Positions 595 through 13,165 of a stretch of 64,000 bases of DNA are shown here, in pieces. The notes under the pieces are model-generated. The model ran no database searches. It saw nothing but the letters and a program-made list of their open reading frames with translations, and was not told the DNA's origin. Position numbers and translations under genes: made by a program. Source of the DNA: Halovenus aranensis. Lineage in GTDB: Archaea; Halobacteriota; Halobacteria; Halobacteriales; Haloarculaceae. How positions within the stretch are numbered: position 1 is the stretch's first letter; every line of letters begins with the position of its first letter. The stretch lies in contig NZ_FNFC01000001.1 in assembly GCF_900100385.1 (NCBI RefSeq), forward strand, positions 248,001 to 312,000, read 5' to 3'.

Positions 595-1563
595 ATGACG
601 ACCGACCTCACCGAAATTACGGTTATCGGAGGGGACAAGACTGGGCTGATTGCTCGTGTCACCACACTGCTGTTCGAGCGCGGAATCAACATCGAGGACC
701 TCGACCAGGCGGTCCGTGACGGCCTGTTCCGGATGTCGATGCGAGTCGACACCGAGGAGATGACTTGCGACCCGGACGAACTCCGGAGCGCGCTGCTCGA
801 GTTGGGCCGTGAACTGGGCGTCGACATCCAGGTCCGGTTTCCGAGTGACCGCGAGACCCAGCGGATTGCGGTCTGTGTCACCAAGGAGTCCCACTGTCTG
901 GAGGGGCTCATGGAGGCCGCAGATGGCGGCGACCTCGATGTCGAAATCGCTGCTGTCATCAGCAACCGCGGAACGCTCCGGCATCTGGTCGAACCGACCG
1001 ATATCCCCTTCTACGATATCGGCGACGGCAAAGGCTCGCCCGACGAGGACCGCATGCTCGACATCTTGGCCGAACACGATATCGACCTGATCGTACTGGC
1101 GCGGTATATGCGCATCCTCGGTCCGAAAATCGTCTTCCGGTACGAGGACCGTATCATCAATATCCACCCGAGCCTGCTCCCCGCGTTCCCGGGGGCGGCC
1201 GCTTACCGCCAGGCAAAAGAAGAGGGTGTCCGCATCGGCGGCGTCACCGCACACTACGTGACCACCGACCTCGACCAGGGGCCGATTATCACCCAGCGCG
1301 CGTTCGACATTCCGGACGACGCCGCGATCGACGATATCAAGGCGCGCGGCCAGCCGCTCGAAGTCGAGGCGCTGCTGGAAGCCGTCGACCTTCATACGGA
1401 CGACGCGGTCGCCGTCCACCGCGGGCGGACGAGTCTCCGTGACGGGGCCGACTCCGGGGAGTACCAGCTCGGATTACCCGAGACTGCCCAAGAAGAGAAC
1501 CCGACACAGCCGGTCGACGCCGCGCTTGACCGCGGTGACGCGCCAAACGCTGCCGACGACTAG
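595..1563 (+). CDS. purU: Formyltetrahydrofolate deformylase (PurU type)
   Basis: The 322-residue protein has an N-terminal ACT domain (about residues 1-85, starting TTDLTEITVIGGDKTGLIAR) and a formyltransferase domain with the conserved block INIHPSLLPAFPG and, 30 residues on, GVTAHYVTTDLDQGPII, giving the Asn-His-Asp catalytic set of the PurU/PurN fold. PurU releases formate from 10-formyl-THF; in archaea the substrate may differ, so purine C1 metabolism is the safe statement. Start is the ATG at 595 because the ACT domain begins there; the upstream in-frame extension is not protein-like. A C-terminal tail of about 50 acidic residues (EEALL... to end) extends beyond the bacterial enzyme length. 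Confidence 0.9.
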   Translation: MTTDLTEITVIGGDKTGLIARVTTLLFERGINIEDLDQAVRDGLFRMSMRVDTEEMTCDPDELRSALLELGRELGVDIQVRFPSDRETQRIAVCVTKESHCLEGLMEAADGGDLDVEIAAVISNRGTLRHLVEPTDIPFYDIGDGKGSPDEDRMLDILAEHDIDLIVLARYMRILGPKIVFRYEDRIINIHPSLLPAFPGAAAYRQAKEEGVRIGGVTAHYVTTDLDQGPIITQRAFDIPDDAAIDDIKARGQPLEVEALLEAVDLHTDDAVAVHRGRTSLRDGADSGEYQLGLPETAQEENPTQPVDAALDRGDAPNAADD

Positions 1564-1630
1564 AGGGTCGAAGCGGCGTGTCAGTACCGCGAGACAAACC
1601 TGCAGACAGCACTAAGAGACGGGTGCCGAG

Positions 1631-1906
1631 TCACTTTCCGGGTGCAACCTGTGGGTTTTGTCTGCAAGACGACTGTGCCCTCGTCTGTCGCTGTGTGACG
1701 AGTCTGGCGACGTGGCCGTACAGACGCTCACCGACTCTGACGCCGACGACACCAGCTACCGCTCCCATCACGAGGGCTGGTGCAGTCATGACCGCGACCA
1801 GCACCGGGAACACCAGTATCGTCCCGAGGAATCCCTCGACCGTCCAGTTCTCGCGGTACTCGTGGTGCCGTTTCGATCCCGTGGCCGAATGTGGTGTCTG
1901 TCTCAT
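1631..1906 (-). CDS. Small hypothetical membrane protein
   Basis: A 91-residue frame convergent with purU. The middle (about residues 27-62) is a strongly hydrophobic stretch, GFLGTILVFPVLVAVM followed by AGVVGVRVGERLYG, enough for one or two membrane helices; the N-terminus is basic and the C-terminus Arg/Gln rich. No family recognised. The opposite strand over this interval has no better frame. Coding status is moderately likely because hydrophobic organisation is kept and an AT-rich promoter-like stretch (1915-1975) precedes it. Confidence 0.5.
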   Translation of the reverse strand: MRQTPHSATGSKRHHEYRENWTVEGFLGTILVFPVLVAVMTAPALVMGAVAGVVGVRVGERLYGHVARLVTQRQTRAQSSCRQNPQVAPGK

Positions 1907-2130
1907 CGTATCTATCCCAATGGTCTATCTCCACATAAGTGTAATCAGAATTAAGCTTCTGTAACAAGCGTTACTGAAAACCTCTTCTGTCCTGCTGGGC
2001 AACAACACTAAGCTAAGGAGTCCTCTGAGGCGTCTTTCGTTGCGGGTGGCTCTATGTGTGCAAGGCCATCAGGACGCCCGATGCCCCCACACGATGGAGT
2101 TCGAACTGTTCGGGTCTGGCACAATAGAAG

Positions 2131-2309
2131 TGGGCTCGGAGGGATTTGAACCCCCGATCGGCTGATATCTCCGGTATCGTGTGCCTCGGTACCCCAGAGG
2201 GTCATCAGCGCGGGTGGTGATCAGCCGCCCGCTCAGTATATCAGGGGTATCGTCACCGAGCACGTTAGCCTCTGGAGTCAGCCGCCTTCCCGGACTAGGC
2301 CACGAGCCC
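2131..2309 (-). tRNA. tRNA-Trp (anticodon CCA) interrupted by a ~105-nt intron
   Basis: On the minus strand the acceptor arms GGGCTCG (2309-2303) and CGAGCCC (2138-2132) pair perfectly, with discriminator A at 2131 and no encoded CCA end. The D arm is at GCCTAGTCCGGGAAGGC, the anticodon loop contains CCA at 2275-2273, and the T arm has GGGGG-TTCAAAT-CCCTC. Anticodon stem halves GCTGA and TCAGC only meet if about 2271-2167 is removed, which leaves a 74-nt tRNA. Intron placement after position 37 and its size match the known haloarchaeal tRNA-Trp. Confidence 0.95.
2167..2271 (-). ncRNA. Box C/D guide RNA inside the tRNA-Trp intron
   Basis: The intron reads (minus strand) box C GTGACGA at 2256-2250, box D' CTGA at 2236-2233, a GC-rich hairpin (GCGGG...CCCGC), box C' TGATGA at 2207-2202 and a box D variant CCGA at 2189-2186. 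The guide before D (CCTCTGG) pairs with CCAGAGG of the pre-tRNA so that the fifth base upstream of D (2194) faces C34. The guide before D' (CTGATAT) pairs with ATATCAG so that its fifth base faces U39. This is the cis-acting arrangement known to direct 2'-O-methylation of C34 and U39 in Haloferax pre-tRNA-Trp. Exact splice sites are inferred within 1-2 nt. Confidence 0.88.
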
Positions 2310-2394
2310 TCAGACATTGGTTGGGCGATTCTACCTAAATGGATTTCGATTGCTGGTCGCAGGAGCGGCCGAAAGCGACCGCAACAACCTCGTT

Positions 2395-2625
2395 TCAGTC
2401 GCCTTCTTCCCGTTCGCTCCAGTCACACTCTTGGCACTTCCAGCCCGTGACAAACGAGAGTGCTGAGGGCATGTAGCCGACTTCTAGCACGTCACCGCCA
2501 CAGTCCGGGCAGTCTCGGTCGGCGTCCGCTATCGGTTCGGCCTCGATGACCTCGGAGTCTTCGATGAGTTCGGCCAGGCGCTTTGGCGTGACCATCCGCC
2601 CCTGGACGACGCGGTTCGTTCCCAT
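2395..2625 (-). CDS. DUF5795 family small zinc-binding protein
   Basis: The 76-residue protein carries two CxxC-type pairs, CPDCGG (residues about 39-44) and CQECDW (about 64-69), forming a zinc-ribbon-like fold; the first half (VTPKRLAELIEDSEVIEAEPI) is a short acidic helix. It matches the Halobacteria-specific DUF5795 family by length and motif arrangement, as far as I recall it. Function unknown. It is encoded on the same strand and downstream of a DUF5794 gene, but 400 nt separate them, so it is probably transcribed alone. Confidence 0.85.
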   Translation of the reverse strand: MGTNRVVQGRMVTPKRLAELIEDSEVIEAEPIADADRDCPDCGGDVLEVGYMPSALSFVTGWKCQECDWSEREEGD

Positions 2626-2927
2626 ACCCCTGCTGTGGTACTCGGTGCCCCTAAGCGTTCGTGTTTCCGTGGCTCAGCCACCGTCTCGTATAAACAAGTT
2701 TCCACGGATTTCAGCCGGGTTCGGGACACATTTGAGTTATACGCCACAGTAAACCGTCGTCTAAGCTGACAACCAACGAGTTCACAGAGCCAAGCCGACG
2801 CGACTTTCTCACGAGCGCACAGCCGTGGGTGCCGCCGCTACCGGGTCGACCGACCGCTATCCGAGTGCCTCCCGTTTCACCGGCGTCGTCGCTATCGCGT
2901 ACTCGCTGGTCTTGTGTGACTGACCCA
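2626..2927. other. Intergenic stretch without a convincing gene
   Basis: About 300 nt upstream of the DUF5795 gene. It holds an AT-rich patch near 2685-2700 (minus strand CTTGTTTATACGAG) that could be a TATA element for that gene with a leader of some 40 nt. Only very short frames exist (the longest plausible is 23 codons on the minus strand near 2925) and none has a recognisable protein. Confidence 0.5.
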
Positions 2928-3034
2928 TAGTGATTATTGCGGTCTTTTCGGTGACCACCTCACAGGACGGGTCGTCTCACATCGTGGAAATGCGTCTGTG
3001 GCTGTCACGGCGTAACGACTCACAATAATCGCTA
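2928..3034. repeat. 107-bp inverted-repeat unit (MITE-like)
   Basis: The ends TAGTGATTATTG (2928-2939) and CAATAATCGCTA (3023-3034) are inverted copies that match at 11 of 12 positions and enclose 83 bp without a coding frame. It sits directly behind the stop codon of the DUF5794 gene (3035). A mini-inverted-repeat element is one reading; a transcription-termination or 3'-end RNA structure is another. No target-site duplication is clear. Confidence 0.4.
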
Positions 3035-3940
3035 TCAGAGCCAGGGCGGGCGGTCCTGTCCCGGACGGAGACCGGTCGTCGACTCGGTCGCGTCGGTGTC
3101 GTCGTCGGGCGGACCGCCACCGTCTGAGATGGGCGTCGGGCCAGCAACGTCGGCAGATTCGTCCTCGGACAACGAGACATCGAACGCGGCCTCGGCGTGC
3201 TCGCTGGTGTCCCCACCCGGATCGAAGGCGAGCAGCGCGGTCATCCCCAACACGAGCAGAGCGACCGGTGCTTCGGATGGAAGCATCCCGGCGATAGAGA
3301 CCGCCAACACACCGAGTGCGACCGCGCTCCCGAAGCGGAACCGGTCGAGTTCGACCACTTCCTGGAGCCATGGCCGGGCCGCCGCAAGGACGACCCCGAA
3401 TCCGACACCCACACCTGCGGCGGCCATCGCGCGGGCGACCAGTCCCAGGTCGGCCTGAATCGTCAGCGTCGCCTCACTCGGCGAGACCGTTGCGAGAAAG
3501 CCAAGCCCGATGATGAGCGCGGGGCTCGGAAGATACTCGGCAATCTTGGCACTCGCGGTCGACGCCGCCACGGCGAGAATGACCAGCGCGGCAAACCGCT
3601 CGAAGACGGCCATATCGATTGCACTCTCGATAGTTGGAGCCAGTGCGGCCTGTAGCCCCGCAACAGGGACGACGACGACACCGATAGCGAGGACAGTCCC
3701 GACGGACCTGCGGGGAGTTCTGTCCATCTCGGCGAGAATCACGGCGACCATTGCGCTCCCGCCGAAGACGAGGAATCCGACCTCGAGAATGCCGACGAGA
3801 CTGTCGAGCGCGCCGCCGAGGACGAGCGTGACGAAGACGCCGTCGACCAGTGGGAGACACAACACGACTGCGAGCAGTCGGGTGGAATCGCTCACCCACC
3901 GCTCGACGGAAAGGGCACGCGGATGCTGTGAGTTGCTCAT
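3035..3940 (-). CDS. DUF5794 family membrane protein
   Basis: 301 residues with about seven to eight hydrophobic segments between residues 20 and 240, followed by a roughly 60-residue acidic, Asp/Ser/Pro-rich cytoplasmic or external tail (DVSLSEDESADVAG onward). The overall form fits the Halobacteria-specific DUF5794 family; no catalytic motif is visible and no function is known. Start ATG at 3940; a weak small frame (3947-4198) ends six bases upstream on the same strand. Confidence 0.85.
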   Translation of the reverse strand: MSNSQHPRALSVERWVSDSTRLLAVVLCLPLVDGVFVTLVLGGALDSLVGILEVGFLVFGGSAMVAVILAEMDRTPRRSVGTVLAIGVVVVPVAGLQAALAPTIESAIDMAVFERFAALVILAVAASTASAKIAEYLPSPALIIGLGFLATVSPSEATLTIQADLGLVARAMAAAGVGVGFGVVLAAARPWLQEVVELDRFRFGSAVALGVLAVSIAGMLPSEAPVALLVLGMTALLAFDPGGDTSEHAEAAFDVSLSEDESADVAGPTPISDGGGPPDDDTDATESTTGLRPGQDRPPWL

Positions 3941-3946
3941 GCGGTG

Positions 3947-4198
3947 TTAGTGCTGTGGCCGGTCACCCGTTGGCCGTGGGTACTCGCGCTCGGGGCGATG
4001 GTGCCTGTGTGAGAACAGATGACTGCTCTGTTGGGTGCCAGCTTTGGCACCGTCAGAGCGGGCAGCCCACGTCCACGGATTGGCGAGACAGCGTGTCCGC
4101 ATTGCGAAGAGTCCCATCACTCGCGCGATATTCATGTCACCGGAACCGATGACCATCTCACGAGCGCTACTCTCGGCGGCAGGGACTCCGTACGCCAT
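3947..4198 (-). CDS. Possible small hypothetical protein upstream of DUF5794 gene
   Basis: An 83-codon frame starting ATG at 4198 (MAYGVPAAESSAREMVIGSG...). It ends six bases before the DUF5794 start, the spacing of an operon, and an AT-rich stretch GAAATAATAGAT precedes the start. Against it: the second half is Arg/His/Ser-rich (HLFSHRHHRPERE), unlike a folded acidic haloarchaeal protein, and no family is recognised. Treat as tentative; if false, 3941-4313 is an untranslated spacer with no other content that I can see. Confidence 0.3.
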   Translation of the reverse strand: MAYGVPAAESSAREMVIGSGDMNIARVMGLFAMRTRCLANPWTWAARSDGAKAGTQQSSHLFSHRHHRPEREYPRPTGDRPQH

Positions 4199-4313
4199 AT
4201 CTATTATTTCGAGGCGGGAAGTAATAGCCTTGTGTGAGGTGCGTGGACACACCGCTATTTTACCGTCTCTCGCCCTGTGTGTGGCAGTCACGCGGCCGGT
4301 CCAATCTCGCAAT

Positions 4314-4323
4314 CCTTTTTAGA
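4314..4323 (+). promoter_or_regulatory. TATA box of guaB
   Basis: CCTTTTTAGA is centred about 25 nt before the guaB ATG (4344), the distance expected for a leaderless haloarchaeal transcript. Confidence 0.5.
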
Positions 4324-4343
4324 TGGTACGCTAGACGGTTTAC

Positions 4344-5831
4344 ATGGCGAACGATATCGACCCCTTCTCGGAGAAACTGCAGGTACCGGAGGCGCTGACA
4401 TTCGACGACGTACTGCTCAAGCCAAAGCGCAGCGCCGTCGAACCTGACGAGGCAGAGACGGAGACGCAGGTCTCAGCGAACGTTTCGCTGACGGTTCCGA
4501 TTCTCTCCGCGGCGATGGACACCGTCACCGAGAGTGGCATGGCAATTTCGATGGCTCGACACGGTGGGCTGGGTGTCCTCCACCGAAACATGAACCTCGA
4601 CCAGATGGTCGAGGAAATCGAGCGGGTCAAAAGCGCAGACGAACTCATCATTCCGCTCGAAGACGTCGTCACGGTCGACCCCGAGACGAGTGTGCGAGAA
4701 GCGGACAACCTGATGGCTCGTGAGGGTGTCGGCGGTGCGCCGGTCATCAACACCAACGGCGAGGTGCTCGGCATCATCTCCTCGACGGACGTGCGTCCAC
4801 ACCTCGAAGTCGACGAGAACGACCCCGTCAAGAAGGCGATGACCGACGAGGTCATCACCGCGCCCCAGGACATCGACGCCCGCGAGGCCTTCGACCTGAT
4901 GTACGAGCACAAAATCGAGCGCGTTCCCGTCGTCGACGACGAGAACCTGCTCGTCGGCCTGGTGACGATGCAGGGCATCCTCCAGCGCCGAGAGTTCGAC
5001 CAGGCCGTCCGCGACGAGGACGGACAGCTTCGGACGGGCGTCGCGGTCGGCCCCTTCGAACTCGAACGCGCGGCTGCCGCCGACGAGGCCGGGGCCGATA
5101 TCGTGTTCATCGACTGTGCACACGCACACAACGGCAACGTCATCGAGAGCGCCCGAGAGATCAAAGCGACCGTCGAGGCCGACGTCGTCGTCGGCAACAT
5201 CGGCACCCGGGAGGCCGCAAAGGACGTCGTCGACTTCGCCGACGGCGTGAAAGTCGGCATCGGCCCGGGCTCTATCTGTACCACCCGAGTCGTGACGGGC
5301 GCGGGGATGCCCCAGATTACCGCCATCGCACAGGTCGCCGACGTGGCGAGCAAACACGACGTGCCGGTCATCGCCGACGGCGGCATCCGCTACTCCGGCG
5401 ACGCCATCAAGGCCATCGCCGCCGGTGCCGACGCGGTGATGCTCGGTTCGTATTTCGCCGGGACCGACGAAGCCCCCGGTCGCGTCATCACGATGAACGG
5501 CAAGAAGTACAAACAGTACCGCGGAATGGGCAGCGTCGGCGCGATGCAATCTGGCGGCGGCGAGCGCTATCTCAAAGACACCGACGAAGACGACGACTAC
5601 GTCCCCGAGGGCGTCGAGGCCGCGACCCCCTACAAGGGAACGCTCGAATCCGAACTCCAGCAGCTCGTCGGCGGCATGCAGTCGGGCATGGGCTATGTCG
5701 GTGCCCAGTCGATTCCCGAGTTCAAGGAACGCGCGGAGTTCGTCCGCGTCTCTGCGGCCGGCCAACAGGAGAGTCACCCACACGACGTTGTCATCACCGA
5801 CGAAGCGCCGAACTACAGTCCCGACAGCTAG
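4344..5831 (+). CDS. guaB: Inosine-5'-monophosphate dehydrogenase
   Basis: 495 residues, the normal IMPDH length. A TIM barrel starts with FDDVLLKP, interrupted by two CBS domains (about residues 95-215, with [16 protein letters not shown] and [16 protein letters not shown]). The NAD/IMP loop [13 protein letters not shown] contains the catalytic Cys, followed by [28 protein letters not shown] and the flap region YRGMGS. It oxidises IMP to XMP in GMP synthesis. Promoter TATA lies 25 nt upstream. Its last four bases overlap the stop of a small zinc-finger gene on the other strand. Confidence 0.97.
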
Positions 5832-5953
5832 AGCCCTTTTCCTTCCGTCTCACAGGCTGGCGAGCAGTATCCCGCCTCGGCGGCGTTCGCGCCCGCCATA
5901 GATTTAAACGCTGTACCACACTCGTTGCAGGTGTACGTGTCAAGCGAGGCCAT
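5828..5953 (-). CDS. 41-residue zinc-finger micro-protein
   Basis: Minus-strand frame from ATG at 5953: MASLDTYTCNECGTAFKS, then an Ala/Gly-rich linker and [13 protein letters not shown]. The pairs CNEC (residues 9-12) and CSPAC (30-34) form a CxxC...CxxxC treble-clef or TRASH-like zinc site. Haloarchaea encode many such micro zinc-finger proteins; a few regulate biofilm or stress. It is convergent with guaB, overlapping it by four bases. No specific partner can be named. Confidence 0.75.
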   Translation of the reverse strand: MASLDTYTCNECGTAFKSMAGANAAEAGYCSPACETEGKGL

Positions 5954-6166
5954 ACACGCGAGTATTCGGCACGATTCAGTAAAGTAGTTTTCTTGCGGAT
6001 GGCGTTTGGCTCAGTGTCGCTCGGTACGTACAATCTGGTCAGCACGGTACCCGCGTATCTCGTTGCAGTTGACGGAGTCTCTCGATAATTCCTGGGCTGA
6101 TAAAACAGCGAAATATGTACAACAGAGGGGTGTCTGGGTTTGAGCCACGAACACGAGGCTGTCGTC

Positions 6167-7849
6167 ATGCCTGACCCACACGAGCGCCGGCGCTCACGAA
6201 CAGAAGACACGCCCAGGCCCGCCCGCCGAACCGTCCTTGCAGCGAGTGCGACCCTCGCCACGGCAGGCATAGCGGGCTGTTCAGGAGACAGCAACGCAGA
6301 ATCAGAACCGACAGAAACACCGAACCCAACACAGACTGAAACAGAAACAACTGAAACACCTGAAACTACGCCGACAGAAGCACCTCAAGTCGTTGCCACA
6401 AACATCGAGTTCGTCGAGGAAAACGGGGACGAAGTCAAAGACCTCGCACAAGTCAACATCCAGACCAGTGGAAACCCTCAACCCGACGCAGTAAACGCCT
6501 CAATCAACGGCCAACAAGTAGGACTAACCCCAACCGAAGACGGATTCGTCAGCGACACAGTACCAGTCAACCGTGAAGGAAGTTACACGGCACAGGTCGA
6601 AACCAGTGAACAAGTAGAAACAGAACAAGGAAGCTTGGAAGACACGGCAGAATACTTCCTGACAAACGGCCCACAGTTCAGTCAAAGAGAAGACACACCC
6701 GGAATAATAGACATACACCTCGAACCAGACCAAGAAACACCCGGAACACTGGAACGACTCAGCGAAAACGTACTAGAAGCCTCAGTAAAAGTCGACGACC
6801 AAGAACAAAACATACAACTACAAAAAACAGGAGACGAACCCGGCTACCACGCCACCGTCAACGCATACAAAAACAGCGAAATAACCGAAGACATCAGCAT
6901 CGTACTCAACCAACTCCAAGACTTCAAACTCGCCGAAGACAACCTCACCGCAGAAGCAACACAGATAAATCCAGAAAACAAGATCACGGCCGAACAAGTC
7001 TACAAAAACCAGTCAACTGAATCAGTACTAACAGAAGAAGAAATAGAAAACCTCGAAAACTACCAAAACGGCAAACCCACAAACCTCGGCCAACTCATCA
7101 AAGAACTAAACAAACACGCAGACGCCACCCGAAGACAGCTAACAAAAGACTACAAAACAATCACACACCAAGACCTCGGCATCAACACAGACCAAATCAA
7201 AGCAATAGAAAGAACATCCACCAGCGGAGAAAACTACACCGCAATATTCTACAGAGAAAACACAGACACCAACTGGAAAAAAGCACTCGCCGAAGCACAA
7301 AGCAATAAAAAAACAGCACCAGAAGCAGTCCTCCTACCCGGCGAAGAAGTCAACCCCATGGACTTCGAAGCCAAAAGAATCCTCCACGGACTCCACGACC
7401 ACGACGACACTGGCAATGTTGCTTCAATTGATTTCGAGCAGATGGCTGGGATAATCGACAACAGTAATACTGAAGAAAATCTAAGCGAAAGTGAGTGGGA
7501 AGAAAATCTGGAGAGAGGAGATAAATATAATGACAGCCTTGTGATCGGAGAAACACCTGGCGATATTGAGATCGGTTATACGCCAGATGTCAGAGGATAT
7601 CTCGGTGATATAATCCATCCGAGGGATGGTGACGCTGCGAAAGAACTAGAGCTAATTGAATCAGCAACAGAGTACCTCCATAACGCAGTACCGGAAGACC
7701 GCTACATGCAGATAGATGTAGCAGAAACAGTCGAAGAAGGAGAAGAACTCATCGACCTAGAAGACGGAAACACCATGTACGCCACCACAGTAGACGAAGA
7801 AACACACAAAGAAAATGTAATGGAAATATACGACTTAGATGACAACTAG
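6167..7849 (+). CDS. Tat-exported lipoprotein of unknown function with foreign codon usage
   Basis: 560 residues from ATG at 6167 (a TTG at 6140 is less likely). The N-terminus has a twin-arginine signal, ARRTVLAASATLATAGIAGC, with a lipobox ending in Cys, so it should be exported folded and lipid-anchored. A Thr/Pro/Glu-rich spacer (residues 43-75) follows, then about 480 residues without a recognised domain. The gene is strikingly unlike its neighbours: codons ending in A dominate (ACA, GAA, CAA, AAA), G and T are rare at third positions, and GC is visibly lower. Between about 7390 and 7690 usage changes again to T/G-ending codons, then returns. This indicates horizontal acquisition and possibly a recombinant origin. 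Confidence 0.8.
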   Translation: MPDPHERRRSRTEDTPRPARRTVLAASATLATAGIAGCSGDSNAESEPTETPNPTQTETETTETPETTPTEAPQVVATNIEFVEENGDEVKDLAQVNIQTSGNPQPDAVNASINGQQVGLTPTEDGFVSDTVPVNREGSYTAQVETSEQVETEQGSLEDTAEYFLTNGPQFSQREDTPGIIDIHLEPDQETPGTLERLSENVLEASVKVDDQEQNIQLQKTGDEPGYHATVNAYKNSEITEDISIVLNQLQDFKLAEDNLTAEATQINPENKITAEQVYKNQSTESVLTEEEIENLENYQNGKPTNLGQLIKELNKHADATRRQLTKDYKTITHQDLGINTDQIKAIERTSTSGENYTAIFYRENTDTNWKKALAEAQSNKKTAPEAVLLPGEEVNPMDFEAKRILHGLHDHDDTGNVASIDFEQMAGIIDNSNTEENLSESEWEENLERGDKYNDSLVIGETPGDIEIGYTPDVRGYLGDIIHPRDGDAAKELELIESATEYLHNAVPEDRYMQIDVAETVEEGEELIDLEDGNTMYATTVDEETHKENVMEIYDLDDN

Positions 7850-7852
7850 TCA

Positions 7853-8422
7853 TCAGCCCAAATTATTAATCGGGTTTCTTCCTTCTCTCCCTCCAAACTC
7901 TCCACCCTCACCAGTTGGGTACCAGTTCCAGTCGATGATTCCGGTTTCGTCTCCGAGGTCTGCTTCAGTGTACGGGATTTCAGGGTCAGGTGATGTACCG
8001 ATGTTTCCTGCGTCGTCGGTGCCTTCGATGATGTATCCTGCTGTGGTGAAGCCGAGTTCGCCGTTTCCACTGAGTTCAAACTCGTTTTTATAGAATACGT
8101 CGTTGTCCTGTGCTTGCTCCGGCAGGTGGCTGATATCTGTTATCTTCTGGTTTAAGCCGTAGGCGCAGCTGTATGTTTCCTGGTTTACACCGCTGCGGTC
8201 GCTGATGTTCGTGGTGATGTAGACGTCTCCGCCTTCGTACTTGTTGACTGTTTTGCTGCCGCCTTCGCTGGGTCTTTCACCGGTTTCTCCCAGCCAGCAC
8301 TCCGCATCAATCGCCAACGGTTCAGCCCAGTCCTCCTCACCTGTCGCAGAAACACTGTACGCCTTCTCCCATGCACCACCCAAACCCTCCAACTTGAATC
8401 CGACGGGGCCAGACCACCGTTT
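7853..8422 (-). pseudogene. C-terminal remnant of a secreted-type protein
   Basis: An open minus-strand frame of about 190 codons ends at 7853 and is closed by an in-frame TGA at 8423-8425. The only usable start is a TTG at 8392; translation upstream of it (GPVGFKLEGLGG) still looks like protein, so the 5' end has probably been lost. The protein is Gly/Asp/Asn/Thr-rich with many aromatic residues (YITTNISDRSGVNQETYS, GIIDWNWYPTGEGG), typical of surface or beta-rich proteins. Its codons share the A/C-ending bias of the adjacent lipoprotein gene, so both came from the same source. The 260 nt beyond (8423-8681) are GC-rich and hold no convincing gene. Confidence 0.5.
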
Positions 8423-8681
8423 TCAGCGTCGGGTGTCCGCGCTCGCTGGGGGCACCGCGTGGCGACCAGCCGCCACGTGCGTAGTTGCGGGTCGTCGGCC
8501 CGTCCCTCGCTCCTCGAAAAACGTGGGTAAAAACCGACGGCTCGGCCGGCCTCGGTGGCGGTGAAACCCCTCGCTCGGCGTCTGCTTGTGCGTCGTTTCG
8601 TTCAGGACGTGTGTCTCGCCGAGCCACAGACGATGCTGTTCGCCCAAATACCTATTGGTAAGACCAACGTATTACGTCTAT

Positions 8682-8963
8682 ATGTCTGGAACAACTACAG
8701 AAGGAAACGGAGATGACGAGATTGTCACGGTGAACTTCAAGCTCACCGAGTCGTTCCTGGACGAGATCGACGACACGTGGCAAGGACGTGGCTTCAACAG
8801 CCGGAGCGAGTTCATTCGCTACACGCTGCGCGACGCTGTGGAGTTCCCGACGTTCGACCGCGACGAACTCATCGCCCTGCTTGGGGCCGAAGAAGATGTT
8901 CGGGAGGGACAGACAATGACGGCAGACGAGGCGCGCGAGCGGTTCGGCACGGACGATGAATGA
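8682..8963 (+). CDS. Ribbon-helix-helix antitoxin (CopG/ParD type)
   Basis: 93 residues from ATG at 8682. VTVNFKLTESFLDEIDDTW is the ribbon plus first helix, and GFNSRSEFIRYTLRDAV the helix-turn region that gives the RHH DNA-binding dimer. The C-terminal part (DRDELIALLGAEED to MTADEARERFGTDDE) is the usual toxin-wrapping segment. It overlaps the start of a ParE/RelE toxin gene by eight bases, so the pair is translated together, and it probably represses its own promoter. Base composition is normal for the chromosome, unlike the island to the left. Confidence 0.88.
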   Translation: MSGTTTEGNGDDEIVTVNFKLTESFLDEIDDTWQGRGFNSRSEFIRYTLRDAVEFPTFDRDELIALLGAEEDVREGQTMTADEARERFGTDDE

Positions 8964-9240
8964 CGACGAGTGGACGTGGGAACTCTCCTCGACCGCGCAA
9001 GGCGACCTCGATGGGCTCTCGCCAGATGAACAAGAGCGGATACTCGACAAACTCGACGAAATCACGACGTCTCCGTGGCGTGAGCCGCCTGCCTACGGCG
9101 AACCACTCCAGAATAGCCCGTACAAGAAGATTCGTATCGGCGAGTTTCGGCTCTCCGTCGCCTTCCGGCAAGACGAGTGTCGAGTAGTAGTCGCCCGAAT
9201 CAAGCGTCGTGGTGGCGCGTACACGGCTGACGACGATTAA
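8956..9240 (+). CDS. RelE/ParE family toxin
   Basis: 94 residues with the family layout: WELSSTAQGDLDGLSPDEQERILDKLDEI (two N-terminal helices), then strands ending in YKKIRIGEFRLSVAFRQDECRVVVARIKRRGGAY. The RIGEFRLSV and VVVARIKRR blocks are the core beta hairpin of RelE/ParE folds. RelE members cut mRNA on the ribosome and ParE members poison gyrase; the sequence alone does not decide which. It overlaps its antitoxin by eight bases. Confidence 0.88.
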   Translation: MNDDEWTWELSSTAQGDLDGLSPDEQERILDKLDEITTSPWREPPAYGEPLQNSPYKKIRIGEFRLSVAFRQDECRVVVARIKRRGGAYTADDD

Positions 9241-12050: not shown

Positions 12051-12157
12051 ACCGCTGCTAGACAACAGCGGCACAAAAGCCGTACTGTCGACGGTCGGGA
12101 CGGTCCCTCACAGCCGGGTGGGCAGACTTTTGTGCGTCGCTGCAGATACGACAGCTA

Positions 12158-13165
12158 ATGACAACGGCTCGGATGGAGAGGGGGGCCACGCCGATTGTCG
12201 CAAATATCCTGCTGGTCGGCATCGCGCTGGTTATCGGTGTCGTTCTCATCACTGTCTCGTTTGGATTCCTCGAAGAGACGGGCGCGCCGACGCCCGAGGC
12301 GACCTTCGAGTACGAGCAGACGCCGGTCGGCCTGCAGATGACGCCCGAGGTGCTGGGGACGGACGTTATCGTCAAACTCAACAACAACGAGGTAGCGACC
12401 TTCGAGGCCGACAGCGCCGGCCAGTCGGTACTTATTCCGACCGCGCCAGACGACACTATCACAGTCATCTCTCGTGACGAGGACCGGGCGGTGCTGGTCA
12501 ACAAGGAGATAGACCGGCGTAACGAACTCGGTGACTTCATCGCCTACTACAGCTTCGACTCCGGCGGCGGCAACGTCACCGACCGCTCGGGGAACGGTAA
12601 CGAGGGAATCCGGAACGGCGGCACCGACTGGGTGAGCGACGAGGACGGTACTGCCCTGGATTTCGATGGCAGTTCTGGAACGTACGTCGACGTCGGTGAC
12701 CTCACCGTCGACGGTCCCGACCGGGTTGAGGAACTCACGGTGGCAATCAGGTACAAACACCACGGGGGGTCGGGCATTCAGAACCTCATCGAACACCAGG
12801 ACTCGAATTTCGCCTGGTTCATCGAGACCGACGGCAAACACGGCGACCCACATCAGATGGAGTGGAACGTCGGCTATAAGACAAATCCGAGTGGGAAGAT
12901 ACCCACCGGCGACATCTCTGGGGGCGAGACGACAGTGCTGGTCGGCACCTACGACGGCTCCGAGATGACCCTGTACCGAGACGGCACCAAGATTGGGTCA
13001 CGCACGTTCGAGCGCGATGTGGCGCTCGGCGAGGTGATTGTGGGTGCTGACTCGGACCCCAGTTCCGTCGGCCAGAATCTCGACGGCCGCATCTACGAAC
13101 TCCGGCTCTACTACGCCGCCTTCGACGGTGATGACGTCGAGGCAATCACGAACGCCATGTCCTGA
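12158..13165 (+). CDS. Type IV pilin-like protein fused to a LamG/concanavalin-like domain
   Basis: 335 residues. The N-terminus, MERGATPIVANILLVGIALV, is a class III (prepilin) signal with the predicted peptidase cut before Gly9, as in haloarchaeal pilins with the Pilin_N domain. A hydrophobic helix (residues 11-35) is followed by a beta domain (50-118). From residue 128, IAYYSFDSG...DRSGNGNEG to the final LDGRIYELRLYYAAFDGDDV is a LamG/jelly-roll lectin-like domain of about 200 residues with the usual GTYDGSEMTLYRDG hairpin. This suggests a surface pilin or pseudopilin that displays a carbohydrate- or protein-binding head. Confidence 0.85.
   Translation: MTTARMERGATPIVANILLVGIALVIGVVLITVSFGFLEETGAPTPEATFEYEQTPVGLQMTPEVLGTDVIVKLNNNEVATFEADSAGQSVLIPTAPDDTITVISRDEDRAVLVNKEIDRRNELGDFIAYYSFDSGGGNVTDRSGNGNEGIRNGGTDWVSDEDGTALDFDGSSGTYVDVGDLTVDGPDRVEELTVAIRYKHHGGSGIQNLIEHQDSNFAWFIETDGKHGDPHQMEWNVGYKTNPSGKIPTGDISGGETTVLVGTYDGSEMTLYRDGTKIGSRTFERDVALGEVIVGADSDPSSVGQNLDGRIYELRLYYAAFDGDDVEAITNAMS

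Follow-up and report, generated by a model that had tools for sequence, protein, structure and literature searches.

The gene at positions 12158–13165 on the + strand of the window (the whole 64000-nt stretch of DNA analysed here) is, as judged by its sequence, a complete PilA-type pilin joined to a LamG domain, and its 335-residue product is most likely the archaeal equivalent of the modular pilins of bacteria, of which PilC of Streptococcus sanguinis is one. We favour, with a probability of roughly 0.65, the reading that the protein is an archaeal modular pilin, namely an adhesin subunit that would be processed and incorporated into a pilus.

The ORF proposed in the first-pass annotation was borne out, with an ATG at 12158 and a stop codon ending at 13165. 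A chance ORF in GC-rich DNA was ruled out by homologues in other species (81% identity in Halovenus salina and 63% in Salinibaculum litoreum) and by low Ka/Ks values. Upstream, alignment with H. salina revealed a conserved promoter-like block, GGGCAGACTTTTGTG (12120–12134, + strand), centred ~31 bp 5′ of the ATG, which may serve a leaderless transcript as its TATA/BRE region. The upstream neighbour, on the opposite strand, is a Tsr3-type rRNA modification gene, and a phosphoglucosamine mutase gene is also among the neighbours; downstream lie a peroxiredoxin-like gene, a seryl-tRNA synthetase gene, an NYN-domain gene and a transglutaminase-like gene, and the gene order around the locus is identical in H. 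salina. As had been stated before, no pilus gene is adjacent to the window copy, which reads from its sequence context as a stand-alone unit. Archaeal pilin genes often stand alone, and individual assembly ATPases are believed to act on different sets of pilins (PMC4858521).

Other features of the window were also recorded. A gene at 6140–7849 (+ strand) encodes a 569-residue predicted Tat-type lipoprotein (RRTVLAASATLATAGIAGCSG) for which Pfam gave no match, and the stretch containing this gene (4001–8000) has a low GC content of 0.554 and a strong skew of A over T (0.288). It is adjoined by an ORF of 179 residues on the − strand (7853–8392), also with no Pfam match. Overlapping genes at 8586–9240 (+ strand) are likely to be a type II toxin–antitoxin pair, consisting of a small protein that is ribbon-helix-helix-like by eye, with no Pfam match, and a ParE-family protein (PF05016, just over the cut-off).

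The N-terminal part of the protein consists of a class III leader (MTTARMERG, residues 1–9; 12158–12184), a hydrophobic pilin helix (residues 10–40; 12185–12277) and a β module (residues 45–118; 12290–12511), all on the + strand. The Arg-Gly of the leader directly precedes ATPIVANILL, with the predicted prepilin peptidase cut falling after Gly9 (RG/ATP), and Arg followed by Gly, Ala or Ser ahead of the hydrophobic run was found in 22 of 24 sequences. TIGR02537 (archaellin/type IV pilin N-terminal domain) matched residues 6–37 with 21.4 bits against a curated cut-off of 20, and matched 13 of the 14 aligned homologues at E 0.01 or better. For Pilin_N (PF07790), the window copy scored 13.8 bits, below the cut-off of 25.2, and the paralogues at loci L052 and L053 scored above it. 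Profile searches with the N-terminal part matched archaeal pilins of known structure (8fj5, 4.3e-7; 9myg, 4e-6; 8gi2, 0.0024), and the structural model placed a helix at residues 11–40, in line with the class III signal to Gly9 and hydrophobic N-terminal helix described in the first-pass annotation.

That annotation had the helix joined to the head. Although the helix and the head are both present, the alignment showed that the pilin part is whole and extends to about residue 118. Residues 1 to ~118 are collinear with eight complete haloarchaeal PilA-type pilin ORFs (131–141 residues, save one of 164 residues with a longer predicted start), which stop where the LamG head starts. Because the alignment with these ordinary haloarchaeal pilins is end to end, residues 10 to ~118 correspond to a whole PilA-type pilin. 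The full-length model, which was built from four sequences and is of modest confidence (pLDDT 60 and pTM 0.56), contains six strands between residues 49 and 105. A fold search with the pilin module alone gave no clear match (best Z-score 6.4), which counts against the modular-pilin reading.

The remainder of the protein is a LamG/ConA-like jelly-roll head (residues 126–335; 12533–13162, + strand). Laminin_G_3 (PF13385) matched residues 174–327 with an E-value of 8.2e-11 and 42.7 bits against a Pfam cut-off of 27.6, and sequence profiles linked the head to LamG-type chains (4qvs, 6.6e-11; 5hon, 0.026). The domain runs from residue 126 to about 328, the modelled jelly-roll spanning residues 126–321. 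Structure prediction had been proposed as a check on the claimed C-terminal LamG/jelly-roll domain of ~200 residues, and the modest-confidence model indeed gave a jelly-roll related to LamG: the best fold match of model residues 123–320 was domain 4 of the arabinanase AbnA (5ho2 and 5hon; Z 19.2, rmsd 2.6 over 179 residues). AbnA domain 4 differs from the head in being part of a secreted bacterial enzyme and shares ~20% identity with it. The 5hon entry is a complex of AbnA with an arabino-oligosaccharide; we infer possible sugar binding by the head from its fold alone, and a jelly-roll is no proof of it. The fold search also returned many clostridial neurotoxin entries, which we took to reflect common ConA-like jelly-rolls and not kinship. 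A viral, phage or plasmid origin was likewise rejected: the IMG/VR profile scan gave no relative, no phage record matched, and the plasmid hits were limited to two that covered LamG alone, with 24–28% identity. In PHROGs, one weak match paired residues 99–329 with a minor tail protein; it covered mostly the jelly-roll and was read as a shared fold.

The genome of the window, which groups with H. salina and on that basis falls in the genus Halovenus, carries three pilin–LamG paralogues, which together hold all three PF13385 domains found in it. Profile searches of this genome also gave 14 matches to TIGR02537, six to T2SSE, nine to T2SSF and one to Peptidase_A24; T2SSE and T2SSF form multiple pairs, and the genome encodes a single prepilin peptidase along with several machines of the pilB/pilC type, in agreement with the earlier suggestion that the assembly machine is located elsewhere. 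The paralogue on contig C42 lies ~4 kb beyond the pilC of a pilB–pilC pair, on the same strand, in three congeneric genomes (G000, the genome of the window, G001 and G002). Synteny within the genus extends over all of this stretch, and the linkage therefore counts as one event. An operon was rejected for this arrangement, as cation-transporter and PhoU-type genes intervene, one of them on the opposite strand. At locus L053, a gene at 1069–3561 (+ strand) encodes a PilC-type platform protein that carries a DUF7282 domain at its C-terminus.

Full-length relatives were patchily distributed, being found in 14 of 391 sampled Halobacteria genomes, mostly of the same family as the genome of the window, together with two that share a genus in family f7; more were present in a set of close genomes. 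In genomes G298 and G329 the pilin half is more divergent, with 31–35% identity in the middle module and 40–43% in LamG. Ka/Ks values for the helix, middle and LamG modules were 0.05–0.12 against H. salina and 0.17–0.25 against S. litoreum, with synonymous sites partly saturated in these comparisons, and such values indicate purifying selection on every module. The H. salina orthologue contains an in-frame TAG at codon 292 (L015, 5874–5876), past which the frame is conserved. This TAG reflects a recent lesion or else an error in the sequence. Unless it is an error, the gene may be dispensable in H. salina, which counts against the modular-pilin reading.

How, then, might the protein work? As a modular pilin, the preprotein would insert into the membrane and lose its leader to the one prepilin peptidase found in the genome, which would cleave behind Gly9; the pilin helix would then let the protein join a type IV pilus whose PilB/PilC assembly machine has its genes at another locus. 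The conserved motifs suggest these steps of processing and incorporation. The LamG head, placed after a complete pilin, would project from the tip or the sides of the filament and could bind carbohydrate, probably a glycan of cell surfaces, the S-layer or the extracellular matrix, and the glycan-bound head would make the fibre stick to cells or surfaces; binding and adhesion are suggested by the fold of the head. Support for this modular-pilin reading comes from the TIGR02537 score, the profile matches to pilins of known structure, the collinearity with whole pilins, the leader motif, the LamG profile and fold matches, the purifying selection and the pilus machinery of the genome. It is further supported by the location of all three LamG domains of the genome on pilins and by other large pilins with different C-terminal parts. 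Counted against it are the lack of a pilus gene beside the window copy, the sub-threshold Pilin_N score and the modest confidence of the model.

The same observations can be set against other readings. The protein might stay in the membrane as an anchored lectin outside any pilus, as its gene stands alone and a large head could clash within a filament; however, the protein has kept the entire PilA-like globular module and not just the helix, with purifying selection acting on it, and such a module would be superfluous in a simple anchor; we regard this outcome as unlikely. A bindosome, in which class III-signal proteins collect sugars for uptake, has been proposed for the sugar-binding proteins of Sulfolobus. 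A similar surface complex, with the LamG head as the collector, would account for a class III signal occurring together with a carbohydrate-binding-type domain, but the Pfam hits are confined to LamG and a weak one to a pilin family, with no solute-binding-protein domain, and the neighbours of the window copy are housekeeping genes with no transporter or bas-type gene among them. We therefore hold the sugar collector to be highly improbable; the retention of a complete pilin module and the absence of a transporter signature make both it and the membrane-retained lectin less likely. Very little weight is given to the idea that the N-terminus is an uncleaved signal anchor with an incidental likeness to pilins. 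The low Pilin_N score of the window copy would fit such an anchor, yet TIGR02537 was over its cut-off, the sequence is collinear with whole pilins and matches pilins of known structure by profile, and the leader motif is kept in homologues.

The history of the two halves was addressed with separate trees. In the tree of the LamG half, clades A (containing the window copy) and B were strongly supported and clade C weakly, and the genome of the window carries one gene of each clade. The tree of the pilin half did not show the LamG clades, with AU p values of 0.046 (A), 0.083 (B) and 0.013 (C); these p values are soft because the groups were named after the first tree was seen, which leaves module swapping as only a lead. 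The pilin halves thus do not follow the LamG clades, which hints at a swapping of modules. A tentative extension, which we consider possible but rather doubtful, is that haloarchaeal pili bear exchangeable lectin heads, with three LamG types in one genome and pilin halves recombining among heads. The large haloarchaeal pilins L035, L051, L049 and L050 resemble the window protein in that a large additional region, here of another kind, comes after the archaeal pilin module, which fits a wider modular pilin design. In L035, L049 and L050 this additional region is not a LamG domain and gave no match to Pfam; L035 and L051 apparently contain two related repeats.

The layout corresponds to the definition of modular pilins (PMC8179133), in which a pilin module carries a C-terminal domain not specific to pilus biology. 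The precedents of S. sanguinis PilC and of the bacterial PF13385 architectures support the modular-pilin reading. S. sanguinis PilC is a modular type IV pilin whose ConA-like lectin module binds glycans (PMC9934059). It has in common with the pilin–LamG protein a class III signal, a pilin moiety and a C-terminal ConA-like lectin/glucanase module; it differs in its bacterial pilin class, its extra Ig-like module and its location in a pil locus with a partner PilA, whereas the pilin–LamG protein has an archaeal PilA-type pilin and stands alone, and might bind glycans by analogy. A survey of IPR012902 pilins listed PF13385 as one of the additional domains that occur in the commonest modular pilin architectures (PMC8179133). 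These bacterial proteins join a pilin to the same Pfam head family, although the IPR012902 signature used in the survey is different from that of archaeal TIGR02537/PF07790 pilins. Haloarchaeal PilA adhesion pilins (e.g. PilA1–6 of Haloferax volcanii; PMC6491452) are small, and the pilin–LamG protein adds ~210 residues of LamG to the leader, helix and β module of this type, the collinear set being made up of sequences other than the H. volcanii PilAs. Searches of open-access papers did not find a description of an archaeal pilin–LamG fusion.

The pilin–LamG protein thus represents, in archaea, a design already known from bacteria. As a modular pilin, it would extend to archaea, on an archaeal pilin scaffold, the bacterial principle of equipping a pilin with an adhesive module, and would give concrete candidates for the specificity of haloarchaeal pili towards partners or surfaces. 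If the heads were indeed exchangeable, each genome could endow its own pili with different ligand specificities.
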